Shown: one piece after another, positions 2,164-15,853 of the stretch
Layout of the letters: each line of letters starts with the position of its first letter
How positions within the stretch are numbered: position 1 is the stretch's first letter
Assembly (NCBI GenBank): GCA_030698575.1
Contig: JAUYMQ010000113.1
Coordinates: 1-16,068, forward strand
Source of the DNA: Deltaproteobacteria bacterium
Lineage (GTDB): Bacteria; JAUYMQ01
Direction of reading: 5' to 3'
Length of the DNA stretch: 16,068 nucleotides
Made by a program: the position numbers and the translations under genes
The notes under the pieces: generated by a model
What the model saw: the letters and a program-made list of their open reading frames with translations, nothing else
Database searches by the model: none
Told to the model about the DNA's origin: nothing

Positions 2164-3298
2164 GCCGCCTCCCCCGCTCCCAGGCTTTCACGTGCCGGTC
2201 GATGAACTCCCCCATCGCTTTCACGAACACCGCGCGGTCGAAGCCGAGGGCATGCTCCCGGATGAGTGCGGGATCAAAATCTCCCTCGACACGCTCGAAC
2301 TGGCGGAGCCCCTCGACCAGGCCGTCGGCCGACTGCTCGCGATAGAAGATGCCGGTGGGGGGACGGCCCGAAGGGTGGCCGGGCGGGATCACGGTTTCCA
2401 GAGCGCCGCCCCGGCCCAGCGCGATCACGGGCCTTCCCGCGGCCATGGCCTCGACGGGGACGATGCCAAAATCTTCCTCGCCGGGGAAAATGAGAGCCCG
2501 GCAGCGCGCATAGAGCGAAGCCAGCTCCCCCCGATCCCGCCATCCGAGCAACTCGACATTGGGGCCGGCCATTGCGCGCAGGCGGGACTCCATCGGTCCT
2601 GAACCGACGACCTTCAAAGGGTAGCCGATCCGGTTGAACGCTTCAACGGCCAGATCGACGCGCTTGTAGGGGGCAAAGGCCGAAACAACGAGAAAGTACG
2701 GCTCCGGCCCTCCCGGCTCGACGCGGAAAGCGCCGGTGCCCACAGGAGGGTAGATCACATCCGCCCGGCGCCCGTAATGCCGGCGTATGCGCTGCGCAAC
2801 GTTTCGCGAATTGGCGGCGAAGAAGCCCACCCGCGACGCGGTGGCGGCGTCCCACCGGCGCAGCCAGGGCGCGACCAGCGCCATCGCGCCGCGCATCCAG
2901 GCCGGCGCCATCCCTCGCCCCCAGTACTGGTCGTACTGATCCCAGACATAGCGCATGGGTGTGTGGCAGTAGCTGAGGTGCAGCGCGCCCGGGCGGGGAA
3001 TCACGCTCTTGGCCACGCAGTGTGAGGTGCTGACGATCAGATCGAAGGGGGATAGATCGAGCCGCTCGATGGCCGCCGGGAAGAGCGGCAGATAGGAGCG
3101 GTAGCGCCGCGCCGCCATCGGAAGCCGCTGCACGAAGCTCGTGACGATCGGATGGGACTCGACCAGCGGCGAGACGCTGCCGGGCACGTGCACCAGCGTG
3201 AAGAGCGGCGCGCCCGGGAAGCGTTCACAGAGAACTTCCAGCACCGCCTCTCCGCCCCGCATGCCCGTGAGCCAGTCATGGACCAGCGCGACCTTCAT
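2147..3298 (-). CDS. Family 4 glycosyltransferase, WbaZ-like
   Basis: A 383-residue GT-B fold retaining glycosyltransferase. The N-terminus MKVALVHDWLTGMRGGEAVL, then TSHCVAKSVIPRPGALHLSY (91-110) and CHTPMRYVWDQY (111-122), are characteristic of the WbaZ-like GT4 group, several members of which are mannosyltransferases of O-antigen synthesis. The nucleotide-sugar site shows SAFAPYKRVDLAV (206-218, with Lys212/Arg213), VGSGP (231-235) and the E-x7-E motif Glu275/Glu283 in EEDFGIVPVEAMAAGRP. No membrane segment is seen, so it is probably cytosolic and adds a sugar to the lipid-linked chain. The ATG at 3296-3298 overlaps the preceding TGA as ATGA and has a perfect GGAGG seven bases upstream. 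An upstream extension of the frame reads through the membrane-protein gene in a wrong frame and is rejected. The donor and acceptor are unknown. Confidence 0.94.
   Translation of the reverse strand: MKVALVHDWLTGMRGGEAVLEVLCERFPGAPLFTLVHVPGSVSPLVESHPIVTSFVQRLPMAARRYRSYLPLFPAAIERLDLSPFDLIVSTSHCVAKSVIPRPGALHLSYCHTPMRYVWDQYDQYWGRGMAPAWMRGAMALVAPWLRRWDAATASRVGFFAANSRNVAQRIRRHYGRRADVIYPPVGTGAFRVEPGGPEPYFLVVSAFAPYKRVDLAVEAFNRIGYPLKVVGSGPMESRLRAMAGPNVELLGWRDRGELASLYARCRALIFPGEEDFGIVPVEAMAAGRPVIALGRGGALETVIPPGHPSGRPPTGIFYREQSADGLVEGLRQFERVEGDFDPALIREHALGFDRAVFVKAMGEFIDRHVKAWERGRRHAQEV
2168..2174 (-). promoter_or_regulatory. Ribosome binding site of the sugar-phosphate transferase gene
   Basis: GGGGAGG on the coding strand, four bases before ATG 2161-2163, inside the end of the GT4 gene. 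It supports the start that gives the 17-base overlap. Confidence 0.7.
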
Positions 3299-4776
3299 GG
3301 GCGCCCCTCCGCCGCCGCGCCTGCCGCAGCCTCCCTGTGCGCAACCCTCCCGAGCCAGGCGTAGGCCCCCAGCCCGAGCAGGACGAGCGCGCCCAGCGGC
3401 AGCGCGTGGCGATGGAGGGCCGGGAGCGTGAAGGAAGCCCGGGCGAGCGCGGCCGACACATCCGACAGGGACAACCCCTGATCCAGCACGTAGCGATAGT
3501 CCGAGATCGTCTGCCCGGGCCCGTGAGGAACAACGTCGTAGACGAGCCCCGCGTTGGACAGAAGAAAGAAGCCGTAGGAAACCGCCGTCAGGCAAAGCGC
3601 GGCGGAGACCCGGACCGCCCGACGTCCACGGGTCAGGAACAGGGCGAGCGGGGGCGCGAGGAAAGGCACCGCGTCGGTCAGGAAGCGCTGCGAGTAGCTG
3701 TCGCCCCCCCACCAGGCGAACCAGAATCCGTAGACGAGCCCGAGTGAGATCAGGGCGGCGAGCGCGGCGCCCCCCATGAGCCGCTGCGCCCGGTCGACGC
3801 CCTCGCGGGCGAACAGCGCCACAGCCGTCCCGGCGAGTGCCAGCCAGTAGAGCGGGTGGTAGAGCAGGAATCCGTGCCGCGGATTGACGAGGACATTGAT
3901 CAGCGGCGGCGCGTTGGGCTCGAAGTGCCAGTGAGGTGAGTAGGTCGATGCAAACCACTCGCCCACCTGGAGCTTGAGATAGACGGGCAGGATCCAGATG
4001 ACGGCGAGCAGCCCCGCCGAGTAGAGCAGGCCCCGGGCGACGAGGCGCGCCGGACGCCGCCAGGAGAGGGCGAGCAGCGTCACGCCCACAGCCGCCGAGA
4101 GCAGCGCGCTCGCGTAGCGCACGATGGCGCCCGCTCCCACGGTCACGCCAAGCCAGAACCAGCGGCGCGCGCGCCCGCCGGGTTCGACGCAGATCCCGGC
4201 CAGCAGTCGGGCCGTGGCGGCAGCGGCGAAGCAGCTCACCGCGTGGCTCATCCCGTTCTGCGCGTAGAAGTGGAGCGGGCTCGCAAAGAACGAAAGCGCC
4301 GTCACGAAAGCGGACCACTCCGGCGAGAAGGCCAGCCGGCGCAACGTGGCGTAGATGAGAAGGAGCGTCAGCAGGGCATAGACGTTGTGGGCCAGCACGA
4401 CGAAGATGATGAGCGCCAGGGTTTCGGAAGTCACCTTCTCGTAAGCAGGCCTCATCTTGCCCGGCGCGATCGCCGGGCGCACCCAGCCCTGCGCGTAGGC
4501 CAGCTTCCCCAGCATGTAGAAGGGCGCATCGAAGATCGCGAGCCCCGGCGGGTACTGCGCGACCCAGCGCTGGACAGTGGCGTTGTAGGAGAGCCCGTTG
4601 AACACCTCGTAGCGGTTGTTGCCGAGATCAAAATCGCGATCCTCGATCATCGATTCGAGTGTCGAGAAATAGCCCCATCCGTCTCCCGCGAGGCCCCGTT
4701 CCCAGACGAGCATGTGAAAGCCCGCGATCGCGAGAACCAGCAGGATGTGGCGCGAACGCGCCACCCGCGCAATCAT
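3295..4776 (-). CDS. Polytopic GT-C-like membrane protein
   Basis: A 493-residue integral membrane protein with about ten hydrophobic helices starting at residues 11-25. The first extracytoplasmic loop carries Asp32 in GDGWGYFSTLESMIEDRD, the position where GT-C glycosyltransferases place a catalytic acid. It is followed by QYPPG (74-78). A later WWGGDSYSQRFLTDAVPFL (355-373) is typical of a widespread poorly characterised group of bacterial GT-C-like proteins. These enzymes usually use polyprenyl-phosphate sugars on the periplasmic face; that activity is inference here. The start is taken as ATG 4774-4776: it forms ATGA with the preceding stop and has GGGGAG five bases upstream. A GTG 18 bases further up (4792-4794) is the alternative. 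The protein differs in loop motifs from the two other GT-C proteins of the cluster. A polymerase-like role cannot be excluded. Confidence 0.83.
   Translation of the reverse strand: MIARVARSRHILLVLAIAGFHMLVWERGLAGDGWGYFSTLESMIEDRDFDLGNNRYEVFNGLSYNATVQRWVAQYPPGLAIFDAPFYMLGKLAYAQGWVRPAIAPGKMRPAYEKVTSETLALIIFVVLAHNVYALLTLLLIYATLRRLAFSPEWSAFVTALSFFASPLHFYAQNGMSHAVSCFAAAATARLLAGICVEPGGRARRWFWLGVTVGAGAIVRYASALLSAAVGVTLLALSWRRPARLVARGLLYSAGLLAVIWILPVYLKLQVGEWFASTYSPHWHFEPNAPPLINVLVNPRHGFLLYHPLYWLALAGTAVALFAREGVDRAQRLMGGAALAALISLGLVYGFWFAWWGGDSYSQRFLTDAVPFLAPPLALFLTRGRRAVRVSAALCLTAVSYGFFLLSNAGLVYDVVPHGPGQTISDYRYVLDQGLSLSDVSAALARASFTLPALHRHALPLGALVLLGLGAYAWLGRVAHREAAAGAAAEGRP
3306..3310 (-). promoter_or_regulatory. 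Ribosome binding site of the WbaZ-like GT4 gene
   Basis: Perfect GGAGG on the coding strand, seven bases before ATG 3296-3298. It decides the start against the much longer open frame upstream. Confidence 0.8.
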
Positions 4777-6461
4777 GGCGACTCCCCGCGCCACATCCGG
4801 CGCGGTAGCTGCGGCGGCGCCGCCGGCCTCCCCTCGGGGTAGAGAACCCGGTACACGCGGTAGAACTGTTCAGACCCCTCGCGCACCGGAAAGCTCGCCG
4901 TCAGCTCGAGATCCTCCGCCCGGATGCTCGTCGTGAATTGCGGATAGTGGCTCTCGGTGGAGCCGTCGTAGGTGACGACGAAGTCCGCGCCGTAGCCGCG
5001 GACGTAGGCGACGACGGCGTCATAGGAGAAGCGCACGGGGACGGGCAGGAAGCGCGCGCCGGCGTAGTAGGTGATGCGCTCGCGGGGGGCGAAGACGAGA
5101 GGCCGCGATCCCGCCCCGGTGTGATCGCGGATCCACTCCCCCGCAAGTCGCTCGCCGATCCCCTCGCCGGCGTTGATGGCGAGCGTCATGGGCAGGAGCG
5201 AGACGACTGCAGCCGCAAGCAGCAGCGCGGCCGACCGGCGAGCCAGCGGCAGGCCGCGACGCGCGAGAAAAGCTTCGAGCCGTGGCCCGAGCGAAACCAG
5301 ACCCAGTGCCGTCCATCCGAGCGCCAGGAGCGCCAGCGTGAAAAGATGCCGCTTGCTTCCGTAGCCGAGCGTGACCACGAGGCGGTAGATCGTGAGCCCG
5401 TAGAGCGCGATGAACGAGAGAAGGTACAGATCGCCCCGCGTCCGCCACAGCGCCCTTCCCCTGACAGCAAGCCCGAGCAGGAGGAAGGGCACCAGCTGCC
5501 AGGTCAGCGCCTCGGCGAGGCCCACGAGCATCCGGGCGCCCCGCCCCACGTAACGCTCGAAGGTCGTTGATCGGCGGATGGGCGGCCGGCCGATGTCGGC
5601 CTCGATCCGCTTCATGACCGTGTCCTCGGCCCAGCTTGGCTTCTTTTGCTCTCCGACGCCGACCAGATGGAGCACGGATTTCTTCTGCGTGAGCTGCCAG
5701 ATGCCCGTCGATTGATGGATATGGTTCAGATAGGGATAGGCGATGATGAGAAAGCCGGCAACGAGGAGGACCGCTGCAAGCGCCCGTGGAAAAAACTCCG
5801 GACGGAGGCGCGCCCCGGGGCGCGGCCAGAAGCCGAGCAGGATCCAGAACCCGCCCAGCGCCGCTAGGCCGACGCCTTCCGGCCGCGTCAGGTATGCGAG
5901 CCCCGCGCAAACACCCACGACGGGAAACATTCCGACGCCCTTCCACTTCGGGAGCAGCGTCAGCGCCCGCCAGAGCACCGCCACCCCCGCCGTGAAGAAC
6001 AGGAGAAATACCGAATCGCTCTGGACGTTCGCGGCATACCGCACGGCGAAGGGGTGGAAGGCCCAGAGCACGAGCGCCGTCCACGCTATGCGCCGCCCGA
6101 ACAGGCGGCGGAAGAACAGCCAGAGGGGGATCCCCACGAGGGCTCCCGCCAGGGCCGAGACGACGAGGCCTGCGCGCTCGTAGTCCCCCAGCAGGGGGTA
6201 GGCCTTCGCCATCAGCCATGAGTAAAGCGGGTGATAGACGTGGCTCAGGGCGTGCCGCGTCTGACCTTCGTTGAATGCGCGGGCGATGTCGATGAAGTGC
6301 GGGCCGTCATTGAAGATCAGATCGTCCCGCGCGCCCAGCACGAGCCGGAGCACGAAGGCGGCGGCGATGAACGCCGCAATGCGCAGCCGATCGGCGCCGC
6401 GCGCAGGCGCCGCCCCGACGGGAATCTTCCCGCTCCGGGCTGTCTCCCCCACGCCGTTCAC
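4773..6461 (-). CDS. PMT/ArnT-like GT-C glycosyltransferase (paralogue A)
   Basis: A 562-residue polytopic protein of the glycosyltransferase 39/PMT_2 type. The first loop has NDGPHF with Asp52, the expected catalytic acid. Then come HPLYSWLMAKAYPLLGD (77-93), typical of the family, YLTRPEGVGL (190-199) and a KRHLFTLALL helix (370-379). Membrane segments fill about 28-430. The last roughly 130 residues form a soluble, presumably periplasmic domain with YYAGA (465-469) and ADFVVTYDG (492-500). It probably transfers a sugar from a lipid-phosphate donor outside the inner membrane. The start is GTG 6459-6461, which overlaps the preceding TGA as GTGA, the coupling seen at other junctions. A GTG at 6536 and an ATG at 6509 upstream in frame lack a Shine-Dalgarno. 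It resembles the GT-C gene at 7461-9167, suggesting an old duplication. Confidence 0.87.
   Translation of the reverse strand: MNGVGETARSGKIPVGAAPARGADRLRIAAFIAAAFVLRLVLGARDDLIFNDGPHFIDIARAFNEGQTRHALSHVYHPLYSWLMAKAYPLLGDYERAGLVVSALAGALVGIPLWLFFRRLFGRRIAWTALVLWAFHPFAVRYAANVQSDSVFLLFFTAGVAVLWRALTLLPKWKGVGMFPVVGVCAGLAYLTRPEGVGLAALGGFWILLGFWPRPGARLRPEFFPRALAAVLLVAGFLIIAYPYLNHIHQSTGIWQLTQKKSVLHLVGVGEQKKPSWAEDTVMKRIEADIGRPPIRRSTTFERYVGRGARMLVGLAEALTWQLVPFLLLGLAVRGRALWRTRGDLYLLSFIALYGLTIYRLVVTLGYGSKRHLFTLALLALGWTALGLVSLGPRLEAFLARRGLPLARRSAALLLAAAVVSLLPMTLAINAGEGIGERLAGEWIRDHTGAGSRPLVFAPRERITYYAGARFLPVPVRFSYDAVVAYVRGYGADFVVTYDGSTESHYPQFTTSIRAEDLELTASFPVREGSEQFYRVYRVLYPEGRPAAPPQLPRRMWRGESP
4782..4787 (-). 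promoter_or_regulatory. Ribosome binding site of the GT-C gene at 3295-4776
   Basis: GGGGAG on the coding strand, five bases before ATG 4774-4776. It favours this ATG, which makes the ATGA overlap, over the GTG at 4792-4794. Confidence 0.7.
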
Positions 6462-7438
6462 GATCCGGCCCCCGCCCGTCTCCGGCGAGCCGCTCCCGCC
6501 AGCCCCCATCCGGCGGGGCAGCCGCGCAGGTGCCACAGCAGCATGCGCGCGCTCTCGGCCGCCTTCCGCCGGGCCCGCGCGGCGCGCCCGAGGGTCACCA
6601 CCGAGATCGCCGAGAAGATAACGAGATTGAGGGCGAGCTTGATCAGCCGGATCGAAATCACGGCCAGCCGCTGCACCGGCCCGCGGTTCTTCCCGAAAAA
6701 GCGGTAGAGCGACCTGAGGTACTCGATCCGCGTCTCCAGCGGCAGCTTCTTCTTCGAGCTTCCCCCCGAAAGATGCGTGATGCGGGCGTCAGGCACATGG
6801 ACCACCTTCCAGCCCGCCTCCCTCATGCGCGCGCACCAGTCGGTTTCCTCCATGAAAAAAAAGTATCCGTCGTCCATCGGGCCGACCTGCTCGAGCGCCT
6901 CACGGCGGACGACGAGGCAGGCGCCGAGCACTGCCTCGACCTCGATCGGCTCGGCGTAGTCCTGCCGTTTGGAGGGATAGCGCCCGGGAAGCATGATGCG
7001 CAGAAGGCTCACGTTAAGGATCTCGGTGGCCAGCGATGGAAAGTTGTGGATGGAGTTCTGCTTGGAGCCATCGGGGTCGAGCAGCTGCGGAGCGCACAGG
7101 CCCGTCCCCGGATTGGCGTCCATCCAGGCGACCAATCGCTCGAAGGCGCCCGGAAGCACCACGGTGTCGTCATTCAGAAGCACGGCGTGGCGGCCCTTCG
7201 CCTCCCGGAGCCCGATGTTGTTGCCGCCGGCGAAACCAAGGTTCCGCGGGTTGCGGATCACCTTCACCCCGGGGAACTCCGCTTCGACCGCAGCGGCGCT
7301 GCCGTCCTCCGAATCGTTGTCGACGACGATGACCTCGAAGCGACTTCCCTTCACCTCGCGGAAGATCGAAGCGACGGCGCGGAGAAGAAGCTCGCGCGCG
7401 TTCCAGGTCACGATGATGATCGAGAGATCGATTCCCAT
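6458..7438 (-). CDS. Family 2 glycosyltransferase, WbbL (rhamnosyltransferase)-like
   Basis: A 326-residue inverting GT-A enzyme. It begins with DLSIIIVTWNARELLLRAV (4-22). It has VVDNDSEDGS (38-47), RNPRNLGFAGGNN (62-74) and LLNDDTVV (87-94) with Asp90/Asp91 for metal-nucleotide binding. It also has AVLGACLVVRREALEQVG (169-186) and GYFFFMEETDWCARM (191-205), with the catalytic-base region Glu197/Glu198/Asp200. This pattern matches the WbbL-like group, many of which transfer rhamnose, but the sugar is not proven. A hydrophobic stretch near 258-282 may anchor the C-terminus to the membrane. The tail from about 285 is Arg/Ala rich. The ATG at 7436-7438 has GGGAG four bases upstream and starts 22 bases after the previous stop. 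An eight-base homopolymer lies in the YFFF codons (see the repeat entry). Confidence 0.93.
   Translation of the reverse strand: MGIDLSIIIVTWNARELLLRAVASIFREVKGSRFEVIVVDNDSEDGSAAAVEAEFPGVKVIRNPRNLGFAGGNNIGLREAKGRHAVLLNDDTVVLPGAFERLVAWMDANPGTGLCAPQLLDPDGSKQNSIHNFPSLATEILNVSLLRIMLPGRYPSKRQDYAEPIEVEAVLGACLVVRREALEQVGPMDDGYFFFMEETDWCARMREAGWKVVHVPDARITHLSGGSSKKKLPLETRIEYLRSLYRFFGKNRGPVQRLAVISIRLIKLALNLVIFSAISVVTLGRAARARRKAAESARMLLWHLRGCPAGWGLAGAARRRRAGAGS
6855..6862 (-). repeat. Eight-base A/T homopolymer inside a glycosyltransferase gene
   Basis: Eight consecutive A on the plus strand, eight T on the coding strand, spanning the three Phe codons of GYFFFMEE in the WbbL-like gene. It stands out in this G+C-rich DNA. 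The run is explained at least partly by the conserved aromatic motif, but tracts of this kind can slip during replication or transcription. Confidence 0.6.
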
Positions 7439-7460: not shown

Positions 7461-9167
7461 TCAGGCGCCCCCCGCCGCAGGGGGCGCGGCCGGAAGCACC
7501 TCGTAGAGATACACCTTCTTCCTGCCGTAATCGAAGGCGTGGATCAGCCGGCCGCCGCCCGCGGTGAACGCCTCGATGAAGCCCGGCCGGAGCCGGGTGG
7601 TCTTGTCCTCGTCGAAGAGAACGTACGCCACCTCGGTTCTCCGGATGTAATCCATGACCTCTTCATAGGGCGCGTAGGGAAAGTAGGAGGTGTGTGCGCC
7701 GGCGTAGTAGTTCTCGATCATCGAGCTGCGCGTCATCACCTTGGCGCCGGGCGGCAGGTTGGCGCGCATCCAGGCGCCGGTCCGCTTCTCGGGGCTCCAG
7801 TACCAGCGGAAGTGGTTCGCCGAGAGATTGATCAGAACCGATTCAACGAGCAGAAGGCTCAGGGCCGCCGCCGCGATCCATTTCAGCGGCTGCCGGCGCA
7901 CCGCCTCGGGCAGCCGCCCCGGCGCCGCGCGCCCGACTCGGGCGGCGGTCTCCAGCAGCCCGACGGACGCCCAGAGGATGCCGAAAGGGACGACCGGCGC
8001 GAGGAAGCGGAGGCTGAAGTGGAAGAGCGAGAGCATCAGGAGATAGGCGCAGACGAGACTCGCGGCGACCCACTCGCCCCGCAGGCGCGGGATCTCCCGC
8101 CGCGCCGCCAGACCCACGAGCAGAAAGGGAGTCAGCACGTAACCCATCGCCGCGGGCACATTCGCGACGAATTCGCCCAGGGCGGTGACATAGTGCCGGG
8201 CGAAGACCCCCGGGTTCCGGCGGACATAGTTCACAAGGTTGAAGGAGTCGTCCGCCTCCGCCGTCTCCGCCCCGTTGCCTTGCCCGGCCGGGGCGTCAGC
8301 GTCCGTTCGCGCCTCGGGGGCGGGGTAGCGCCACTTCTCCGAGGCGAGAGTGCCCTCCAGGTGCGACTTCTTGAAGATGGCGCCGCTCTTGGCCGAGAGC
8401 GTCCAGACGCCGCTCTTGGCGTGTGTGACCGCCATCTGCGGCAAGAGCCCGACCAAGAAAAACAGGAGCGTGATCGCGCCGAGCGCGACCGCCCGCCAGA
8501 GAGCCCGGGCCTGCATGAGCGCCGGCACGGCGATCCATCCGCCGATGACCACCAGCAGCCCCATCGCCTCGGGCCGGTTCAAGCAGGCAAGCCCGACGGC
8601 CAGGCCGAACAGCGCGGCCGAGGAGGCCGTCCGCCGGCGCAGGAGCGCCACGCCGGCTAGAAAGGCGAGCAGGAAAAAGAAGGTGTAGGTCGGCTCGGTC
8701 ATCACCTGCGCGCCGAAACGCGACAGGAAGGGGGAAAAGGCGGCCATGGCCGCGCCCATCCGCGCGGCGCTCCGCCCGTGGGGGGGCGGGAGCAATCGTC
8801 GGAGCAGAAAATAGATGAGCGGGACGGCGGCGGCGCCGAAGATCGCGGAGGTCAACTGCCCCGCCAGCTCGAGAGCGCCGGCGTCGGCCACCGGACCCTG
8901 CCATGCGGCGGCGGGAAGAAGGTGCGCCACGCCGGCGACGCATAGCGAGTAGACGAAGGGGATCATCGCGTCGAAGCCTTGCGACCAGCGTCCCTCGAAG
9001 AATGCCCGGGCCATCGGGGCGTACCACCCCACACCGTCGCCGGCGATGCGGTTGGTGAACCCGATGAGCAGGGCCCGGAGAGCGAAACCGGCAAGCGTCC
9101 AGCCGATCACCCATGCAGCATCGCTTCCGGAATTCGCGCGCTGGCGACCCTCGCGACCCTGGGTCAT
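7461..9167 (-). CDS. PMT/ArnT-like GT-C glycosyltransferase (paralogue B)
   Basis: A 568-residue polytopic protein related to the GT-C gene at 4773-6461. The first loop has AGDGVGWYAPMARAFFEG (42-59) with Asp44 as the likely catalytic acid. LNRPEAMGL (196-204) corresponds to LTRPEGVGL of its relative, and GVWTLS lies at 253-258, the same residue numbers as GIWQLT there. Membrane helices run from about 18 to 450, interrupted by a hydrophilic low-complexity insert (about 270-310, Ala/Glu/Asp rich). The C-terminal soluble domain contains YYAGA (487-491) and VAYVLFDED (513-521). A lipid-phosphate sugar donor and periplasmic action are expected from the family. The ATG at 9165-9167 makes ATGA with the stop of the GT2 gene and has GGGGAG just upstream. 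A 53-residue upstream extension in frame is rejected because it is GT2 coding sequence. Confidence 0.87.
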   Translation of the reverse strand: MTQGREGRQRANSGSDAAWVIGWTLAGFALRALLIGFTNRIAGDGVGWYAPMARAFFEGRWSQGFDAMIPFVYSLCVAGVAHLLPAAAWQGPVADAGALELAGQLTSAIFGAAAVPLIYFLLRRLLPPPHGRSAARMGAAMAAFSPFLSRFGAQVMTEPTYTFFFLLAFLAGVALLRRRTASSAALFGLAVGLACLNRPEAMGLLVVIGGWIAVPALMQARALWRAVALGAITLLFFLVGLLPQMAVTHAKSGVWTLSAKSGAIFKKSHLEGTLASEKWRYPAPEARTDADAPAGQGNGAETAEADDSFNLVNYVRRNPGVFARHYVTALGEFVANVPAAMGYVLTPFLLVGLAARREIPRLRGEWVAASLVCAYLLMLSLFHFSLRFLAPVVPFGILWASVGLLETAARVGRAAPGRLPEAVRRQPLKWIAAAALSLLLVESVLINLSANHFRWYWSPEKRTGAWMRANLPPGAKVMTRSSMIENYYAGAHTSYFPYAPYEEVMDYIRRTEVAYVLFDEDKTTRLRPGFIEAFTAGGGRLIHAFDYGRKKVYLYEVLPAAPPAAGGA

Positions 9168-9997
9168 GGCTCCCCGTCGCGCTTCCACGAGCCGCTCACT
9201 GGCGGTTCGAGGTCCCCGGCCGATCCCCGCTGGAGATGCGAGCGGGCCCAGGGGCCCTCCCGGGTGGAGCGAAGCGCGGGCCACATCAGCAGCATGTCCT
9301 TGATGGTGGCCCAGATGATGCCCCACTTCCCACCGCTCCCGGTCCCGTACTGGCGCGGCATATGCTCGATGACTACCCCGCGGATGAGAAACCCCCGGCG
9401 CAGCGCCCGGATGCAGAGCTCCGCGTCGATGAAGGGGCTTTCGGTCTGGAGAGGAACCACTGCGTCGAGCAGTCGGCGATGGATGAGCTTGACGGAGTTC
9501 ACGTCGCCGATGGTGACACCGTAGAGCGTCCGGATGAGGAAGTTGTAGACGTAGGACTGCCGCTTCCTCCGGCCTGCGTCGTTCCGGATCTCACGCCACC
9601 CAACGACGAGGTCGGCGAGTTCCGCGGCCGGCAGCATTCGCTCGAGCTGTGCGGCGCGAATCTGCCCGTCACCCGGAATCGAGAAGACGAGCTTCCCGGC
9701 CGCGGAGTGGTAGAGCTCGCGCATCGTGTAGCCGAAGCCCCGGTTCACCTTGTGATGGATGACGCGAAGAGCGTCGAACTCCCGCGAGAGCTTGTCGAGA
9801 ATCTCCCCCGTGCTGTCCCGGCTACCGTCGTTCACCACGAGTATCTCGTGGCGCGGCGCTGCCTGGGAGGCGACATAGGAGGCCTCGCGCACCACGGCCT
9901 CGATGCTGCCGGCGTCGTTGTAGGCCGGCACGATAATCGAGAGATCGGGGGTCAGCTGCGCCCCGGCTGTCTCGGTTCCCGGCTCCAGGCTTTCCAT
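9164..9997 (-). CDS. Family 2 glycosyltransferase, DPM1/polyprenyl-phosphate sugar synthase-like
   Basis: A 277-residue GT-A protein with DLSIIVPAYNDAGSIEAVV (18-36), EILVVNDGSRDSTGEIL (51-67), NRGFGYTMREL (85-95) and ESPFIDAELCIRA (186-198). This resembles dolichol/polyprenyl-phosphate mannose synthases. It has no C-terminal membrane helices, so it would be the soluble, DPM1-like form. A plausible job is to make the polyprenyl-phosphate sugar donor for the GT-C enzymes encoded directly downstream; this is inference from gene order. The usual DxD-type motif reads IPGDGQ (107-112), with Pro where the first acid is normally found. The start is placed at ATG 9995-9997; a GTG at 10004-10006 is the alternative, both preceded by G-rich sequence. 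It follows the aminotransferase stop by 56 bases and ends in an ATGA overlap. Confidence 0.88.
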   Translation of the reverse strand: MESLEPGTETAGAQLTPDLSIIVPAYNDAGSIEAVVREASYVASQAAPRHEILVVNDGSRDSTGEILDKLSREFDALRVIHHKVNRGFGYTMRELYHSAAGKLVFSIPGDGQIRAAQLERMLPAAELADLVVGWREIRNDAGRRKRQSYVYNFLIRTLYGVTIGDVNSVKLIHRRLLDAVVPLQTESPFIDAELCIRALRRGFLIRGVVIEHMPRQYGTGSGGKWGIIWATIKDMLLMWPALRSTREGPWARSHLQRGSAGDLEPPVSGSWKRDGEP

Positions 9998-10053: not shown

Positions 10054-11172
10054 TCACTTCCCGAAGAATTCCCGCACCGCGCCGGCCACCCGCTCGATTT
10101 CCCCATCCTCGAGTTCCGGATAGAACGGCAGGCTCAGCGTTCGCGCGGCCCACGCCTCCGTCCGCCCGAGGCCACCGGGCCCGAGCCGGGCGCCGGCGTA
10201 GGCCGGCTGGCGGTGGACCGGCGTCGGATAATGGATGAGGGTCTCGATGCCGCGTTCGGCCAGGTGCTTCCGCAACGCGTCGCGGCGCCCCGTCTCCACG
10301 GCATAGAGGTGCCAGGCGTGGCGGCACCGCTCGCGGACCGCAGGGAGGCGGAAATCCCCGGCGCCATCGAGATCGCGGAGGGCTCGATCATAGTGCGCGG
10401 CCATCGCATCGCGCCGGGCCGCCCAGGCCTCGAGTCGGCCGATCTTGACGCGGAGGATGGCGGCCTGCAGCTCGTCGAGCCGGCTGTTCCGCCCTGGGGC
10501 CTCCGCCTGATCCCGCGTCGGCTGGCCGTAGTTGCCAAGCGCCCGCACCGTTCCCGCCAGCTTCTCATCTACTGTCACGAGGATGCCCGCGTCGCCCAGG
10601 GCGCCGAGGTTCTTGCTCGGATAGAGGCTGAAGCAGCCGGCGACGCCCAGCGTCCCCACGGGCCGCCCGTCGTACGCGGCGCCGTGCGCCTGGCTGGCAT
10701 CCTCGACGACGTGCAGGCCGCGCCTTCCGGCGATGTCGAGGATCTCCCCCATGGCGGCCGGCTGGCCGTAGAGATGGACCGGCACGACCGCGCGGGTACG
10801 CTCGCCGATCGCGGCCTCCAGTGCCCGGGCGTCGAGCGTACGGAAATCGTCGACGTCCACGAAGACCACATCCGCGCCCGTCTGCCGGATGGCCGAAGCG
10901 GTTGGAATGGCCGTGGCCGAAACCGTGATGACCTCGTCACCAGGGCCCACGCCGAGCCCCATGAGCGCAAGCGCGATGGCGTCGGTCCCCGACCCGACGC
11001 CGACCGCAAAGGGGGCGCCGGCCACCGCCGCGAACTCGCGCTCAAAGGCCTCGCCCTCCTCGCCGAGGATGAACCAGCCCCGGTCCAGCACCCGCGCGAT
11101 CGCTGCGTCAATCTCCTCTCGCAGCGCCGCGATCTGCCGGCGGAGATCCCCGAAGGGGATGGGCTCCGTCAC
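10054..11172 (-). CDS. DegT/DnrJ/EryC1/StrS sugar aminotransferase
   Basis: A 372-residue fold-type I PLP enzyme that aminates a keto nucleotide sugar, normally with glutamate as amino donor. Visible marks are PFGDLRRQ at the start, GVGSGTDAIALAL (58-70, PLP phosphate binding), VITVSATAIPTASAI (81-95), Asp158 in VVEDASQAHGA, and Lys187 in FSLYPSKNLGALGDAG as the PLP Schiff-base lysine. NSRLDELQAAIL (229-240) and HLYAVET (288-294) are also present. The length is typical of the family. The VSATAI block recalls enzymes that make 3-amino sugars such as QdtB/FdtB, but regiochemistry is not certain. The GTG at 11170-11172 overlaps the acyltransferase stop as GTGA and has GAGG seven bases upstream. 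The longer frame to 11325 reads acyltransferase sequence out of frame. It acts with the adjacent SDR and acyltransferase, by context. Confidence 0.93.
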   Translation of the reverse strand: MTEPIPFGDLRRQIAALREEIDAAIARVLDRGWFILGEEGEAFEREFAAVAGAPFAVGVGSGTDAIALALMGLGVGPGDEVITVSATAIPTASAIRQTGADVVFVDVDDFRTLDARALEAAIGERTRAVVPVHLYGQPAAMGEILDIAGRRGLHVVEDASQAHGAAYDGRPVGTLGVAGCFSLYPSKNLGALGDAGILVTVDEKLAGTVRALGNYGQPTRDQAEAPGRNSRLDELQAAILRVKIGRLEAWAARRDAMAAHYDRALRDLDGAGDFRLPAVRERCRHAWHLYAVETGRRDALRKHLAERGIETLIHYPTPVHRQPAYAGARLGPGGLGRTEAWAARTLSLPFYPELEDGEIERVAGAVREFFGK

Positions 11173-11918
11173 TTCGACGCCTCGGTCCAGGGATAGGGGT
11201 GATGGCCCGGTGTGATCTTGCACGGGATCTCGTCGCTGCGCTTCGTGATCTTCGCCGGCGAGCCCATGGCCACCATCCCGTCCGGAACGTCCTGGTTCAC
11301 GAGGGTGTGCGAAGCGATGAGGCACCGCTTGCCCACCTTCACGCGCGGCATCACGATTGAATACATCAGGATAACGGTCTCCTCCCCGATGACGGGCGCC
11401 TCGAGGTGGCGCCTGCAGGGGGGGTGCAGCGAATCGGGCAAGCAGCTGTAGGGATAGACCTGGACCCGGTCACCCATGACCGTCCCCTGCGAGAGGCACA
11501 CGTGGTAGTGAAGTCGAACGCCGTTGCCGAGCTTGCAGCGACCGTCGACCGTCACGAAGGTCCCGAAGCTGCAGTCGTCTCCGGCCTCGGTGAACTCCCG
11601 GATGGCCGCGCTGTGCCCCGTGCGCAGCCGCGCTCCCGTGCGGCTGCCGGCGTAGATCACCGTGCCGGCCCGGATGATGGCGCCCGGCCCGATGACCGTG
11701 GGCGGGTTCTCGTAACCGGCGTCGCCGTAGAAGTCCGCGAGCGGCTCGCCGAGGACCACGTTCGGACCGATGTAGCCGCCCTCTCCCACCGACACGTTCT
11801 CATAGAGGATGGCCCCCTCGCGAACGGTCACATTCTTGCCGAGCGTCACGTTCTCGTAAATCCGGGCCGACGGATCGATCCGTCCCAGGTTGTCGCGCAT
11901 GCGCATGATCTTCGTCAT
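11169..11918 (-). CDS. Left-handed beta-helix (hexapeptide) acyltransferase
   Basis: A 249-residue protein built almost entirely of imperfect hexapeptide repeats: ARIYENVTLGKNVTVREGA (18-36), VIGPGAIIRAGTVIYAGSRTG (75-95), and further turns to about 210. It ends with VPDGMVAMGSPAKI (211-224), the closing motif of sugar O/N-acetyltransferases of this fold. A TGHSAAIRE segment (100-108) contains His102, a candidate catalytic or CoA-site residue. Such enzymes act as trimers with acyl-CoA. Between an SDR and an aminotransferase, the simplest reading is N-acylation of the amino nucleotide sugar made by the neighbour. It is longer than WbpD-type enzymes (about 190 residues) and carries a loop DSLHPPCRRHLEAP (162-175). 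The ATG at 11916-11918 overlaps the SDR stop as ATGA; the 57 extra in-frame residues upstream are SDR coding sequence. Confidence 0.9.
   Translation of the reverse strand: MTKIMRMRDNLGRIDPSARIYENVTLGKNVTVREGAILYENVSVGEGGYIGPNVVLGEPLADFYGDAGYENPPTVIGPGAIIRAGTVIYAGSRTGARLRTGHSAAIREFTEAGDDCSFGTFVTVDGRCKLGNGVRLHYHVCLSQGTVMGDRVQVYPYSCLPDSLHPPCRRHLEAPVIGEETVILMYSIVMPRVKVGKRCLIASHTLVNQDVPDGMVAMGSPAKITKRSDEIPCKITPGHHPYPWTEASK
11180..11183 (-). promoter_or_regulatory. Ribosome binding site of the aminotransferase gene
   Basis: GAGG on the coding strand, seven bases before GTG 11170-11172. It supports the GTG that overlaps the acyltransferase stop codon as GTGA. Confidence 0.6.
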
Positions 11919-12952
11919 TCCCAGTAGAAGGACTTGTTCTTGCGGTAATACTCCACGGTACGCCTCACGCCCTCGCGGAGTCCGGTGCGGGGTTCCCATC
12001 CGAGCCGGGCGCGGATCTTCGAGATGTCGGAATAGAAATCTCCCGGCTCCTGCGCGGCGCGCTCCGGGCTGAAGGGGGCAAACTCCCACCGTCCGCTTCC
12101 CGCCACGTCGATGATCGTCTTGGCCAGTTCGAGGAAGGTCGTGGGCTGGTCGACACCGACGTTGAAGATCTCCCCGGTGGCCTCCTCGCTGATGGCGGCG
12201 ACGAGCATGGCGTCCACGCAGTCGTCGACATAGAGGAAGTCGCGTAGGATGCTTCCGTCGCCGAAGACCTTGATCGTCTCGCTGTCGATAGCGAGCCTCA
12301 CGAACCAGTTGGCGACGCCGAAGCGCGAGTGTTTCATCTGCGCGCGAGGCCCGTAGACATTGGTAATTCGCAACAGAACGGAGCGAACGTCGTGAGTGTC
12401 GTTGTAGACCTTGATGATCTTTTCCGCCGTGAGGTTCGAGATTTCATAGATGCCCTTGGGGTTCGTCGGAGCCTCCTCGTTGACCGGAAGCGTCACCGAC
12501 GGACCGTACTGGCCACGGGTCCCCGTGTAGACAACCCTCGCCCGGGGCGCGTGGCGCCGGATGGCCTCCATCACGACCGCCGTCCCCTTGATGTTCATGT
12601 CGATGTCGGGGAATGGATCGGTCAGGCTCGTGATGTGGCAGACCTGTCCCGCGAGGTGGAAGACGAAGTCCTTCTCGCGGACGAGCCAGTCCATCGCGCT
12701 CGCGTCGCGAATGTCGCAGTAGTTCACGGCGACTTTCCGGCGGACGGGCTGGATATTGAAGAGGTTCCCGCCGTAGTCCTGGATCATGGCGTCGGCGATG
12801 GTGACTTGGGCGCCCAGCCTGGCCAGTCGGACGGCCAGGTTGGATCCGATGAATCCCATTCCGCCCGTGATCAGGACGTTCCGCCCATCGTAGAGCTCGC
12901 CGAGCCGGGCTTCGGCGGGCGCTCTCGACGCGCTCTTGCCAGGACTGCTCAT
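11915..12952 (-). CDS. Extended SDR: NAD-dependent nucleotide-sugar epimerase/dehydratase family
   Basis: A 345-residue extended short-chain dehydrogenase. The NAD-binding motif GGMGFIGSN (30-38) follows a short extra N-terminus of about 20 residues. FHLAGQVCH (98-106), Thr145 in VYTGTRGQYG, and LRITNVYGPRAQMKHSRFGV (194-213) follow. GDGSILRDFLYVDDCVDAML (231-250) and GEIFNVG (260-266) are standard for GalE/dehydratase-like sugar enzymes. The catalytic tetrad position normally Tyr-x-x-x-Lys reads Tyr169-Glu-Ile-Ser-Asn173, so the Lys is missing. The enzyme may belong to a subgroup with altered chemistry or work as a binding protein; 4-epimerase, 4,6-dehydratase and decarboxylase cannot be told apart. 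The ATG at 12950-12952 has AGGA four bases upstream. It lies 79 bases after the kinase gene, the largest gap of the cluster, and overlaps the acyltransferase by four bases. Confidence 0.92.
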   Translation of the reverse strand: MSSPGKSASRAPAEARLGELYDGRNVLITGGMGFIGSNLAVRLARLGAQVTIADAMIQDYGGNLFNIQPVRRKVAVNYCDIRDASAMDWLVREKDFVFHLAGQVCHITSLTDPFPDIDMNIKGTAVVMEAIRRHAPRARVVYTGTRGQYGPSVTLPVNEEAPTNPKGIYEISNLTAEKIIKVYNDTHDVRSVLLRITNVYGPRAQMKHSRFGVANWFVRLAIDSETIKVFGDGSILRDFLYVDDCVDAMLVAAISEEATGEIFNVGVDQPTTFLELAKTIIDVAGSGRWEFAPFSPERAAQEPGDFYSDISKIRARLGWEPRTGLREGVRRTVEYYRKNKSFYWE

Positions 12953-13031: not shown

Positions 13032-14699
13032 TCAGAGTGCGGCTCCGGGGGCCCCGCCGTTCGCGGAGCGGCCGAAGCCCTCCGGTTCGGGCTCCCAGCG
13101 CCGCGCACCCGTGCCCCAAAGATGCTTGCGATCGATGCTCTCGCGGACAATCCGCCGGAGCGCTTCCCGCGTCGCGCGCGCATCGCCGAGCACGCCTCCC
13201 CGCGCGTAGGCCTTGAAGGCGCGGAGTCTTTCGGTCCGGCTCACGGGCGGCGGCAGCGAGCCGTTCAACTGCGCGAGGGCGCGCTCGCGCTCCGCTGCGG
13301 AGAGGCTCGCGGGAAAGTCCAGATCCTCCAGGTCGAGAAGGTAGAACCGCCATCCCCGATCCGCTTCCCCGACCAGGATGTTGCCCGCCTTCAGATCGGC
13401 GTGGCGGGCCCCGCTTGCGTGTAGATGGCGCACCCATGCGCCGGCCGCATCCGCGAACTGCCGACGGTGCGCGCGGCCGGCCCCGGGACCTCGCAGGGTC
13501 AGGGCCGCGTAGTGGGTGAGCCAGGGAAGATGGCCCAGATCTTCCATGACGAGAAGGGTTTCACCCGGTCCCTCGGCCAGCGCCAAAGCACGAGGTGCGC
13601 CCAGGCCGCGAAGACGGCACCCTTCCGCCGCGCGCCAGGCGGCGCGCGCCCGATCACGCGCGAGGGGGCGGCGGCGATAGCCTTTCACGCAGAGCGCGCC
13701 GCTCTTGCCGGTCCCGACCCGCAGCACGCGCGACCGCGGCGTCTCGCGGAGAACCTCCGCGTGCTCGCCGTGCCGGACCGCCGCGAGCGCGCCGTCGATC
13801 GCCACTTGATCGGCGTCCTCGGCGCGGTGCAGCCACCCAAAGACTGTTTTCTCACGGACAAAGTGCGGGCCGCCGCGCAGTGCGCGCCGCGCGCGCCGCG
13901 CCCGGTGCATCCGGGCCCGACGTTCGGACGCAGAGGCTATGGCCCTGGCGGCATCGGCCTCCGTGACCGCCCAGGCCGGCATCTCCCGGAGGTAGCGCCG
14001 CAGGAACCGGAGGCGATCGCTCCTGCGCGCCCAGGGCGACGCGGCGTAGTCGAGCCAGGCCAGATCGGTGATCCAGTGACGGGGCCCCGGGCGGCGCGGC
14101 CTCTGCGCCCTGTGCAGATCGATGAGCCAGAGCGCGGGCGCCGGCTCATCGAGCGGTCCCGCCAGAAAGTTTCCGAGGTGGAGGTCCCGGTGGAAGAACC
14201 CTTCCCGGTGGAAGGCGGCGACGATGCCGGCCAGCCCCGCTGCGAGTCGCCGCCGCCAGGCGCCGCCGTCTGCGTTCCTCTCGTTCGCGCGGGCAAGGAG
14301 GCGCTGATCGAGCGCCAAAGCTCCCTCGATGCCCTCGGTGACCAGGTAGGACTCGAGAGCGACGCCCAGCCGGCGGCGTTCCCCCAGCGCCAGGGGACGC
14401 GCCGTGCGAATCTTCCGCTCGAGGAGACTGCGGGCGTTGCCCCATTCGGCCCGCGCCCGCGAGGGCGTGAAGAGAAAACGGATCGAGGAAATCAATCCGC
14501 GGTAGCGATCGTGCTTCACGTACAGCGTGCCGCCGGCGACGGCGGCTATCCGCGCGACGCGCCGCGCGCGGGTCTCCTTGACGATCTCCCCCGCGGTCCC
14601 GTCCGTGCTGGCAGCCCAGGCGAACAGCGCCGGCAAGTCCTCGCCGGCCAGCCCGTCGATCTCCCAGCGCACGCCGTCCCGGCGCATCTCGCCCGGCAT
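13032..14699 (-). CDS. Tandem LPS-kinase-like protein (two WaaP/InaA-type domains)
   Basis: A 555-residue protein with two complete kinase-like domains. Domain 1 (about 35-215) has Lys62 in LYVKHDRYRG, the catalytic loop HRDLHLGNFL (170-179, Asp172 and Asn177) and the metal-binding Asp195 in LIDLHRAQ. Domain 2 (about 315-470) has Lys339 in LCVKGYRRRP, LLVMEDLGHLPWLTHY (382-397), the loop HADLKAGNIL (433-442, Asp435 and Asn440) and Asp456 in LLDLEDLDF. Known WaaP/KdkA/InaA proteins have one such domain (about 230-290 residues) and phosphorylate heptose or Kdo of the LPS core, or are of unknown target. Next to heptose-activation and core GT genes, a double core kinase is likely. No membrane helix is seen. 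The start is ATG 14697-14699 within GTGATG; GTG 14700-14702 is equally possible. The C-terminal tail from about 530 looks disordered. Confidence 0.9.
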   Translation of the reverse strand: MPGEMRRDGVRWEIDGLAGEDLPALFAWAASTDGTAGEIVKETRARRVARIAAVAGGTLYVKHDRYRGLISSIRFLFTPSRARAEWGNARSLLERKIRTARPLALGERRRLGVALESYLVTEGIEGALALDQRLLARANERNADGGAWRRRLAAGLAGIVAAFHREGFFHRDLHLGNFLAGPLDEPAPALWLIDLHRAQRPRRPGPRHWITDLAWLDYAASPWARRSDRLRFLRRYLREMPAWAVTEADAARAIASASERRARMHRARRARRALRGGPHFVREKTVFGWLHRAEDADQVAIDGALAAVRHGEHAEVLRETPRSRVLRVGTGKSGALCVKGYRRRPLARDRARAAWRAAEGCRLRGLGAPRALALAEGPGETLLVMEDLGHLPWLTHYAALTLRGPGAGRAHRRQFADAAGAWVRHLHASGARHADLKAGNILVGEADRGWRFYLLDLEDLDFPASLSAAERERALAQLNGSLPPPVSRTERLRAFKAYARGGVLGDARATREALRRIVRESIDRKHLWGTGARRWEPEPEGFGRSANGGAPGAAL

Positions 14700-15853
14700 C
14701 ACCGCCCACCCATGGCAAGCGCCGCCTCGAACACCTTCACAAGTCCGTCCGCATGCGCGCGCGGGGAGAGCAGCTCCGCACGGGCGCGCGCCTGCCGGCC
14801 CATCTGCTCGCGCAAGCCGCGCTCCGCGAGGCGGTCGACCGCCGCGGCTAGCGCGGCGGTGTCGTCCGACTTCTCCACGACAAACCCCTCGCGACCCTCG
14901 GTAATCACCTCCGAGGCGCCGTTCATCCGCGTGGTGATTGCCGGGAGCCCCATCGCCAGCGCTTCGGCCGTGGCGTTCGAAAAGGCATCGTAACGCGTGG
15001 GCGCGAGCAGCGCATCCGATGCCGCGTAGAGCGCCTCGATGTCGGGCCGCGCCCCCGCGAAGATCACCCGATCACCGGCCCCTTCGCGCTCCGCCAGCGC
15101 GCGGTAGGGCCCCGGCCCGCCCTTGCCGGCCACGAGGAGCCAGGGGCGCGACCGGGCGCGCGCTGCGGCCGTGACGGCGAGATCGAGCCCCTTTCGTCGA
15201 AAACCGGAACCCGAGAAGATCAGTGTGTAGGCCTCGTCGGGAATTCCCAGCGACGCGCGGACCTCGTCGCGACGCCCGCGGTGCCGGGCGGGATCGAAGC
15301 GCGCGGCGTCCACCGGATTGTGAAGCACGTCGATGCGATCCGGCGGGACGTCGTAGCGCGCGAGGATTTCATCGCGCACCCGGTTCGAGTTGAACAGGTA
15401 GCGCCGCGTCGCGCCGGTCCGCCAGGCGCTGAAAATTCGCTTCTCCATCGCCAACTGGGCCGCGTGACGGGGATTCAGGCGCGACAGAGAGCCGCGCCCG
15501 GCGCCTGTTCCAGCGGAAGTCGCCCGCAGCAGGGTGTCGTAGGCCCCCGCCCCCTCGCGGTAGACATCCTGGTGCGGCGTGCGCGCCAGCCCGAGAACAG
15601 CGTCCCACGCTCCCCGATCTCGCTCGATCACCCGCGCGGCGCCTCTGGCAAAAGAGAAAGTCTTGACCGGCGACCAGAAGGTCGCCGCGCGCACCGAATG
15701 CAACGCCGCTCCCGGAGGCAGGTCGCGCGCTTCGGAAGCGATGATGCTGACAGTGTGCCCGGCTTCGATAAGCGCGCGAAGAACGGTCTCGGCGTATCTC
15801 TCCACGCCGCCGCGGGCTGCATCGTAGTGATTGATGATGATGGCCACGCGCAT
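14699..15853 (-). CDS. Family 4 glycosyltransferase, WaaG-like LPS-core enzyme
   Basis: A 384-residue GT-B glycosyltransferase. The N-terminus MRVAIIINHYDAARGGVERY, then GLARTPHQDVYREGAGAY (88-105) and YLFNSNRVRDEI (152-163), match WaaG-type enzymes that add a hexose to the heptose region of the LPS core. The donor site shows LIFSGSGFRRKGLDLAV (211-227), VAGKG (241-245) and TRYDAFSNATAEALAMGLPA (286-305). In that last block the usual E-x7-E motif is Asp289-x7-Glu297, as in other WaaG-like proteins carrying YDPFSN. The ATG at 15851-15853 has AGGAG ten bases upstream and starts 13 bases after the heptose adenylyltransferase stop. It is followed without a gap by the tandem kinase. Frame extension upstream to 16024 reads the previous gene out of frame and is rejected. 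It is probably cytosolic and membrane-associated. Confidence 0.92.
   Translation of the reverse strand: MRVAIIINHYDAARGGVERYAETVLRALIEAGHTVSIIASEARDLPPGAALHSVRAATFWSPVKTFSFARGAARVIERDRGAWDAVLGLARTPHQDVYREGAGAYDTLLRATSAGTGAGRGSLSRLNPRHAAQLAMEKRIFSAWRTGATRRYLFNSNRVRDEILARYDVPPDRIDVLHNPVDAARFDPARHRGRRDEVRASLGIPDEAYTLIFSGSGFRRKGLDLAVTAAARARSRPWLLVAGKGGPGPYRALAEREGAGDRVIFAGARPDIEALYAASDALLAPTRYDAFSNATAEALAMGLPAITTRMNGASEVITEGREGFVVEKSDDTAALAAAVDRLAERGLREQMGRQARARAELLSPRAHADGLVKVFEAALAMGGR

Follow-up and report, generated by a model that had tools for sequence, protein, structure and literature searches.

One bacterial gene was confirmed to encode two joined domains of the LPS-kinase family, and this pairing is real and recurrent rather than unique, since such domains occur fused or as the products of neighboring genes in many bacteria. 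The gene lies in a window of 16,068 nucleotides (the whole stretch of DNA that was analyzed), which is an entire contig of a deltaproteobacterial genome of 4.13 Mb in 653 contigs, a fragmented metagenome-type assembly. We propose, with moderate confidence, that its product is a two-headed lipid A-core kinase that would act with a WaaG-like GT4 glycosyltransferase, most likely on two positions of the core.

Two kinase domains in one reading frame

A sequence-only reading of the window had described two sets of kinase motifs in one 555-residue frame, and these were found as claimed, on the minus strand. The ATG of the kinase gene overlaps the TGA of the upstream GT4 gene (TGATG, 14701-14697, from the sequence), so that the two genes are probably translated together; a GTG at 14702 is an alternative start of the kinase gene. 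The features concerned are:

13032..14699, minus strand: two-domain LPS-kinase-family protein, 555 aa (ATG at 14699, stop codon at 13032-13034)
13881..14690, minus strand: N-terminal kinase domain, WaaP-like, residues 4-273 (PF06293, RfaP model, phmmer)
13092..13862, minus strand: C-terminal kinase domain, C-type, residues 280-536 (PF06293, C-type profile)
14699..15814, minus strand: WaaG-like GT4 glycosyltransferase, directly upstream (sequence, Pfam, locus comparison)

When the halves were searched separately, as that reading had suggested, both passed the curated Pfam cutoff of the Kdo/WaaP LPS-kinase family PF06293 (21.3 bits), the N half with 68.0 bits (E = 9.9e-19) and the C half with 44.1 bits (E = 2.1e-11). 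An iterated HMM delimited the domains to residues 4-273 and 280-536. Its matches were full-length and scored 222.8 and 171.8 bits, values that are not independent, because this HMM includes the window's own halves. The best PDB match of the whole protein by phmmer was the WaaP structure 6dfl (E = 1.4e-14, residues 33-244). The C-type profile matched the same structure with an E value of 4.4e-28, aligned over the whole kinase domain, and WaaP with 99.9% by hhalign. AlphaFold was run with only two sequences, those of the window protein and a Tectomicrobia homolog, and with so few its pLDDT was 35.6, too low for a confident model.

Membership in the family does not make either half a known enzyme. 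The N half scored 86.4 bits with the RfaP model NCBIfam NF011703, below its cutoff of 170, and both halves fell below the cutoff of 142 of the KdkA model NF002475 (35.6 bits for the N half, 27.7 bits for the C half). Judged by these cutoffs and by the WaaP site residues described below, neither half would qualify as an equivalog of WaaP/RfaP or KdkA.

The protein can nevertheless be compared with both. It shares the PF06293 domain with WaaP/RfaP, and its N half has in common with them the Lys, the alphaC Glu, the HRD motif and DLHR; WaaP differs in having one kinase domain of about 265 aa where the window protein has two, and a CYICH loop where the window's N half has LHLGN. KdkA belongs to the same Pfam family, has the N-type loop DLxxxN and provides the NCBIfam model closest to the C half, but it keeps the alphaC Glu that the C half lacks, and the C half remains far below its cutoff. 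The heptose II kinase WaaY and InaA are distant single-domain relatives in the same kinase cluster, and E. coli WaaY takes one of the most remote positions in our domain tree.

A C-type subclass without the alphaC glutamate

The N half has the beta3 Lys (K62), the alphaC Glu (E85), the HxD motif (H170/D172, within HRDLHLGN at 170-177, which includes H174 and N177) and the metal Asp (D194, within DLHR at 194-197). The C half keeps K339, H433/D435 (within HADLKAGN at 433-440, which includes K437 and N440) and D456 (within DLE at 456-458); at the position of the alphaC Glu it has Ala354. The residue numbers of the sequence-only reading agree with these except for its Asp195, which is Asp194 counted from the ATG. 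Its description of both halves as not visibly degenerate holds for the N half and for the other catalytic residues of the C half, but not for the missing glutamate. By these alignments, Ala354 marks a subclass, and the PF06293 membership of the C half stands.

In the WaaP of Pseudomonas aeruginosa, the corresponding kinase residues are K51, E78, H161/D163 and D188; Y165, H168 and R191 are essential, and the substitution E78A raises EDTA sensitivity 128-fold (PMC6147952). The sites of Y165, H168 and R191 are occupied by H174, N177 and R197 in the N half and by K437, N440 and D459 in the C half. Given the effect of E78A in WaaP, a C-type domain without this glutamate may be a weak or unusual kinase.

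The loss is a feature of the subclass. The alphaC Glu is absent from 21 of 21 surveyed C-type domains vs 7 of 48 other family members (Fisher p = 4e-12, which is indicative because the Glu column had part in defining the groups). Another 20 C-type domains, found when a two-domain relative served as the query, all have Ser or Ala at this site; in the gammaproteobacterial loci, 20 of 20 WaaP domains and 20 of 20 middle domains have Glu. The beta3 Lys, the catalytic Asp, the loop Asn and the metal Asp do not vary among 16 C-type sequences or among the 20 further ones, and the signature DLKxxN plus DxD/E is, as far as these alignments reach, stable across the subclass. The kept residues argue for retained catalysis in a working but unusual kinase, which is short of proof of activity. 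Decay is also seen: two genes of genome G040, in loci L033 (6500-8152) and L034 (6364-7905), encode a kinase N half followed by a decayed or barely detectable C half, and that of L033 has lost the beta3 Lys and the catalytic Asp, a possible route to a pseudokinase.

Subclass scores were obtained with profiles from which the tested genome was left out. The C half scored 106.6 bits with the C-type profile, 63.9 with the N-type, 49.3 with the KdkA and 24.4 with the WaaP profile; the N half scored 173.9 bits with the N-type plus WaaP profile and 148.7 with the C-type. Nearly all double proteins show the same split. The two halves of the window protein are 30% identical, about as similar as N halves (33%) or C halves (29%) are across lineages. 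These identities rule out a recent duplication, and the claim that the halves differ and are no recent duplicates was borne out by identity, best subclass profiles and WaaP substrate-site residues together. The phylogeny says less about older events. An AU test did not reject the window's two halves as sisters (p = 0.14). The first tree gave a clade of C-type domains an SH-aLRT support of 86; once the Glu column had been masked and the long rows taken out, this support was gone and the deep branches lost resolution, that of the window's C half included, and we dropped the idea of a single firm clade. What defines the subclass is therefore its profile scores and its residue signature.

The makeup of other double proteins is informative. 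The N half of the G411 protein is a bona fide RfaP (308 bits, cutoff 170) and its C half is C-type, and the KdkA-like N half and C-type C half of the G136 protein match a pair of neighboring genes in G261 and in G372. Taken together, the sequences favor a fusion of different kinases over an old internal duplication.

Fusions, neighboring kinases and LPS genes

Two-domain proteins, counted as two domains in one frame, were found in 14 genomes from 13 families, a count that includes the window's own genome (G000, G024, G290, G215, G136, G169, G026, G040, G048, G086, G400, G411, G406 and G410). Ser/Thr protein kinases among the PF06293 matches of the survey, present in many genomes (e.g., at L036), were left out of these counts. 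A pattern scan of genome contigs with a two-row alignment gave one named homolog; viral contigs and plasmids were searched as well and gave no matches. The survey, which the sequence-only reading had called for, also recovered the same kinases as separate overlapping neighbor genes (L042, L043 and L044). C-type domains are stand-alone genes in these three loci and in L048. The view that known enzymes of this family are single-domain proteins does not hold for the family at large, given the double proteins of 13 families and the three-domain WaaP fusions of a gammaproteobacterial group. The fragmented assembly could suggest that a lost stop codon had joined two genes here alone. This is hardly credible and was refuted by fused homologs in other genomes: a Candidatus Tectomicrobia genome has a colinear one (L003/L037, a 577-aa frame, 32-35% identical over residues 22-516 and 34% over its full length), and others occur in 12 other families.

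The fusions vary in composition. GT2-kinase-kinase fusions were found at L032, L035 and L040, and WaaP-kinase-kinase fusions with three kinase domains (740-767 aa; order WaaP, DxHxxN type, C-type) at L058 (7902-10127), L068, L072 and L073. Close relatives in the same genus as the latter encode WaaP and a two-domain protein by separate adjacent genes. In one gammaproteobacterial order, a two-domain query was matched in 22 of 35 genomes, and in all of the 20 loci that were read WaaP is directly followed by the two-domain protein, encoded by an overlapping or adjacent gene in 16 of them and fused to WaaP in the other 4. These two-domain kinases (about 470-510 aa) and WaaP-kinase-kinase fusions (740-770 aa) resemble the window protein in having two PF06293-type domains with the C-type second, the former beside WaaG and WaaP, but the first domain belongs to a different subclass (DxHxxN, without DLHR). 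The P. aeruginosa protein PA5006 is possibly a two-domain kinase of this kind; it has at least 493 residues, is a putative LPS kinase, and its gene closes the series waaF-waaC-wapG-waaP-wapP-wapQ (PMC8707732). We found no paper on tandem LPS-kinase domains in one protein, or on the subclass without Glu, in a literature search covering mostly non-subscription papers; tandem LPS kinases surely lie in annotated genomes.

Other arrangements were seen along the way. At L038 (5905-9104), two consecutive two-domain kinase genes (519 and 547 aa) overlap at their ends, giving four kinase domains side by side that adjoin HldE-like and WaaG-like genes; in the second of these G215 proteins, each half is WaaP-type. 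The gene just upstream of that for the Tectomicrobia double kinase (L030, 5082-7430) encodes a 782-aa protein in which a GT2 domain is followed by an apparent heptosyltransferase (GT9), one more fusion from LPS-core synthesis. A 744-aa protein at L058 (2963-5197) joins an apparent glycoside-hydrolase-like N part to an LPS-kinase-family domain at residues 473-743.

The neighborhood of the window gene includes, besides the GT4 gene, the following:

11915..12952, minus strand: NAD-dependent epimerase-like gene, downstream (43% to the epimerase of L040)
10054..11160, minus strand: DegT/DnrJ aminotransferase (Pfam; 41% to the L040 counterpart)
6458..7438, minus strand: GT2 glycosyltransferase (Pfam; of a type adjacent or fused to kinases elsewhere)

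Among the compared loci, the window's GT4 is closest to the GT4s found beside such kinases (L048, L042, L030, L038, L057 and L058), and next to E. coli WaaG (27% over 282 residues); in E. coli waaQGP, too, a WaaG-like GT4 gene lies beside the kinase gene. Relatives of the window's GT2 neighbor a kinase in L042 (48%) and L038, and are fused to kinases in L032 (49%), L035 and L040. The last of these loci, from another phylum-level lineage, shares the epimerase and DegT genes with the window. The relatives mostly adjoin LPS-core genes, i.e., those for RfaF/heptosyltransferases, HldE-like halves, GmhB, KdsA, an MsbA-like exporter and a WaaE-like GT2, which were recognized by reading translations and not each by HMM. 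The window's own cluster, with its WbaP-type sugar-phosphate transferase, DegT, acetyltransferase and epimerase, looks more like one for O-antigen or outer core than for inner core. Three PMT_2-type (GT39-like) membrane proteins are also encoded in the window (3295-4764, 4773-6470 and 7461-9239), one scoring just under the Pfam cutoff.

Elsewhere in this genome we found a Kdo transferase homolog, three heptosyltransferase matches and three further single kinases. One of the kinases, at L027, is KdkA-like (87.3 bits, KdkA cutoff 142) and adjoins heptosyltransferases. The single LPS-kinase-family genes at L028 (5116-6891) and L029 (1236-2267) lie away from LPS genes and adjoin MutS2-like and P450-like genes, and the L029 kinase has lost the HxD motif.

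What the two domains may do

We infer that both domains are active, that their substrates are sugars of the LPS core and that two sites are modified. The C domain could instead be a regulatory or scaffolding partner that binds nucleotide or the nascent core with little catalysis, leaving phosphorylation to the N domain. We consider this rather unlikely. The consistent loss of the alphaC Glu would fit it, as would the L033 protein, where loss of catalysis is tolerated; however, other C-type sequences have kept Lys, Asp, Asn and the metal Asp over very deep divergence, the lysine of DLKxxN is also kept, like in Ser/Thr protein kinases, and C-type domains exist as stand-alone genes, too. The C domain could also be a protein kinase whose target is a partner, be it the N domain, the GT4 or some other LPS enzyme, in view of the likeness of that loop to Ser/Thr kinases and of weak matches to Bud32 by a C-type protein that stands alone. 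This seems very improbable to us: the best curated family is Kdo/WaaP, no regulatory feature was seen in the activation loop, and sugar kinases share this company of LPS-core genes.

A further possibility is that the two domains share a single position or substrate, an old internal duplication having brought a gain in dose or processivity. The near-equal identities between and within the two kinds of halves, the AU test and the G215 protein with two WaaP-type halves are compatible with this, but the halves differ in subclass scores and substrate-site residues, and other fusions are mixed (WaaP plus C-type, KdkA-like plus C-type), which makes this reading improbable.

As a two-headed kinase, the protein would be a cytoplasmic enzyme that takes part in building the lipid A-core at the cytoplasmic face of the inner membrane. 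Its two domains, the WaaP-like one and the C-type one, would each use ATP to phosphorylate a hydroxyl of a core sugar, most likely at two different positions that may be on two heptoses, or on a heptose and a neighboring sugar, and the kinase would probably work in step with the WaaG-like GT4 whose gene overlaps its own. Since this genome has a KdkA-like gene of its own elsewhere, Kdo is the less probable target and a pair of heptoses the more probable one. More tentatively, and with some doubt, C-type domains could be an overlooked subclass of LPS kinases without the alphaC Glu, always paired with a classical LPS kinase, fused or as a neighbor, and adding a second core phosphate coupled to WaaG-type transfer.

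The outer membrane is held together by inner-core phosphates, which P. aeruginosa requires for growth. Should a single protein indeed carry two heads, the order and coupling of core phosphorylations could be addressed in one enzyme by a point mutation in each head. Through the fusions, a little-described subclass of kinases without the normally essential Glu is also linked to WaaP and WaaG, and this link would give a testable function to many proteins that are annotated only as LPS-kinase-like.
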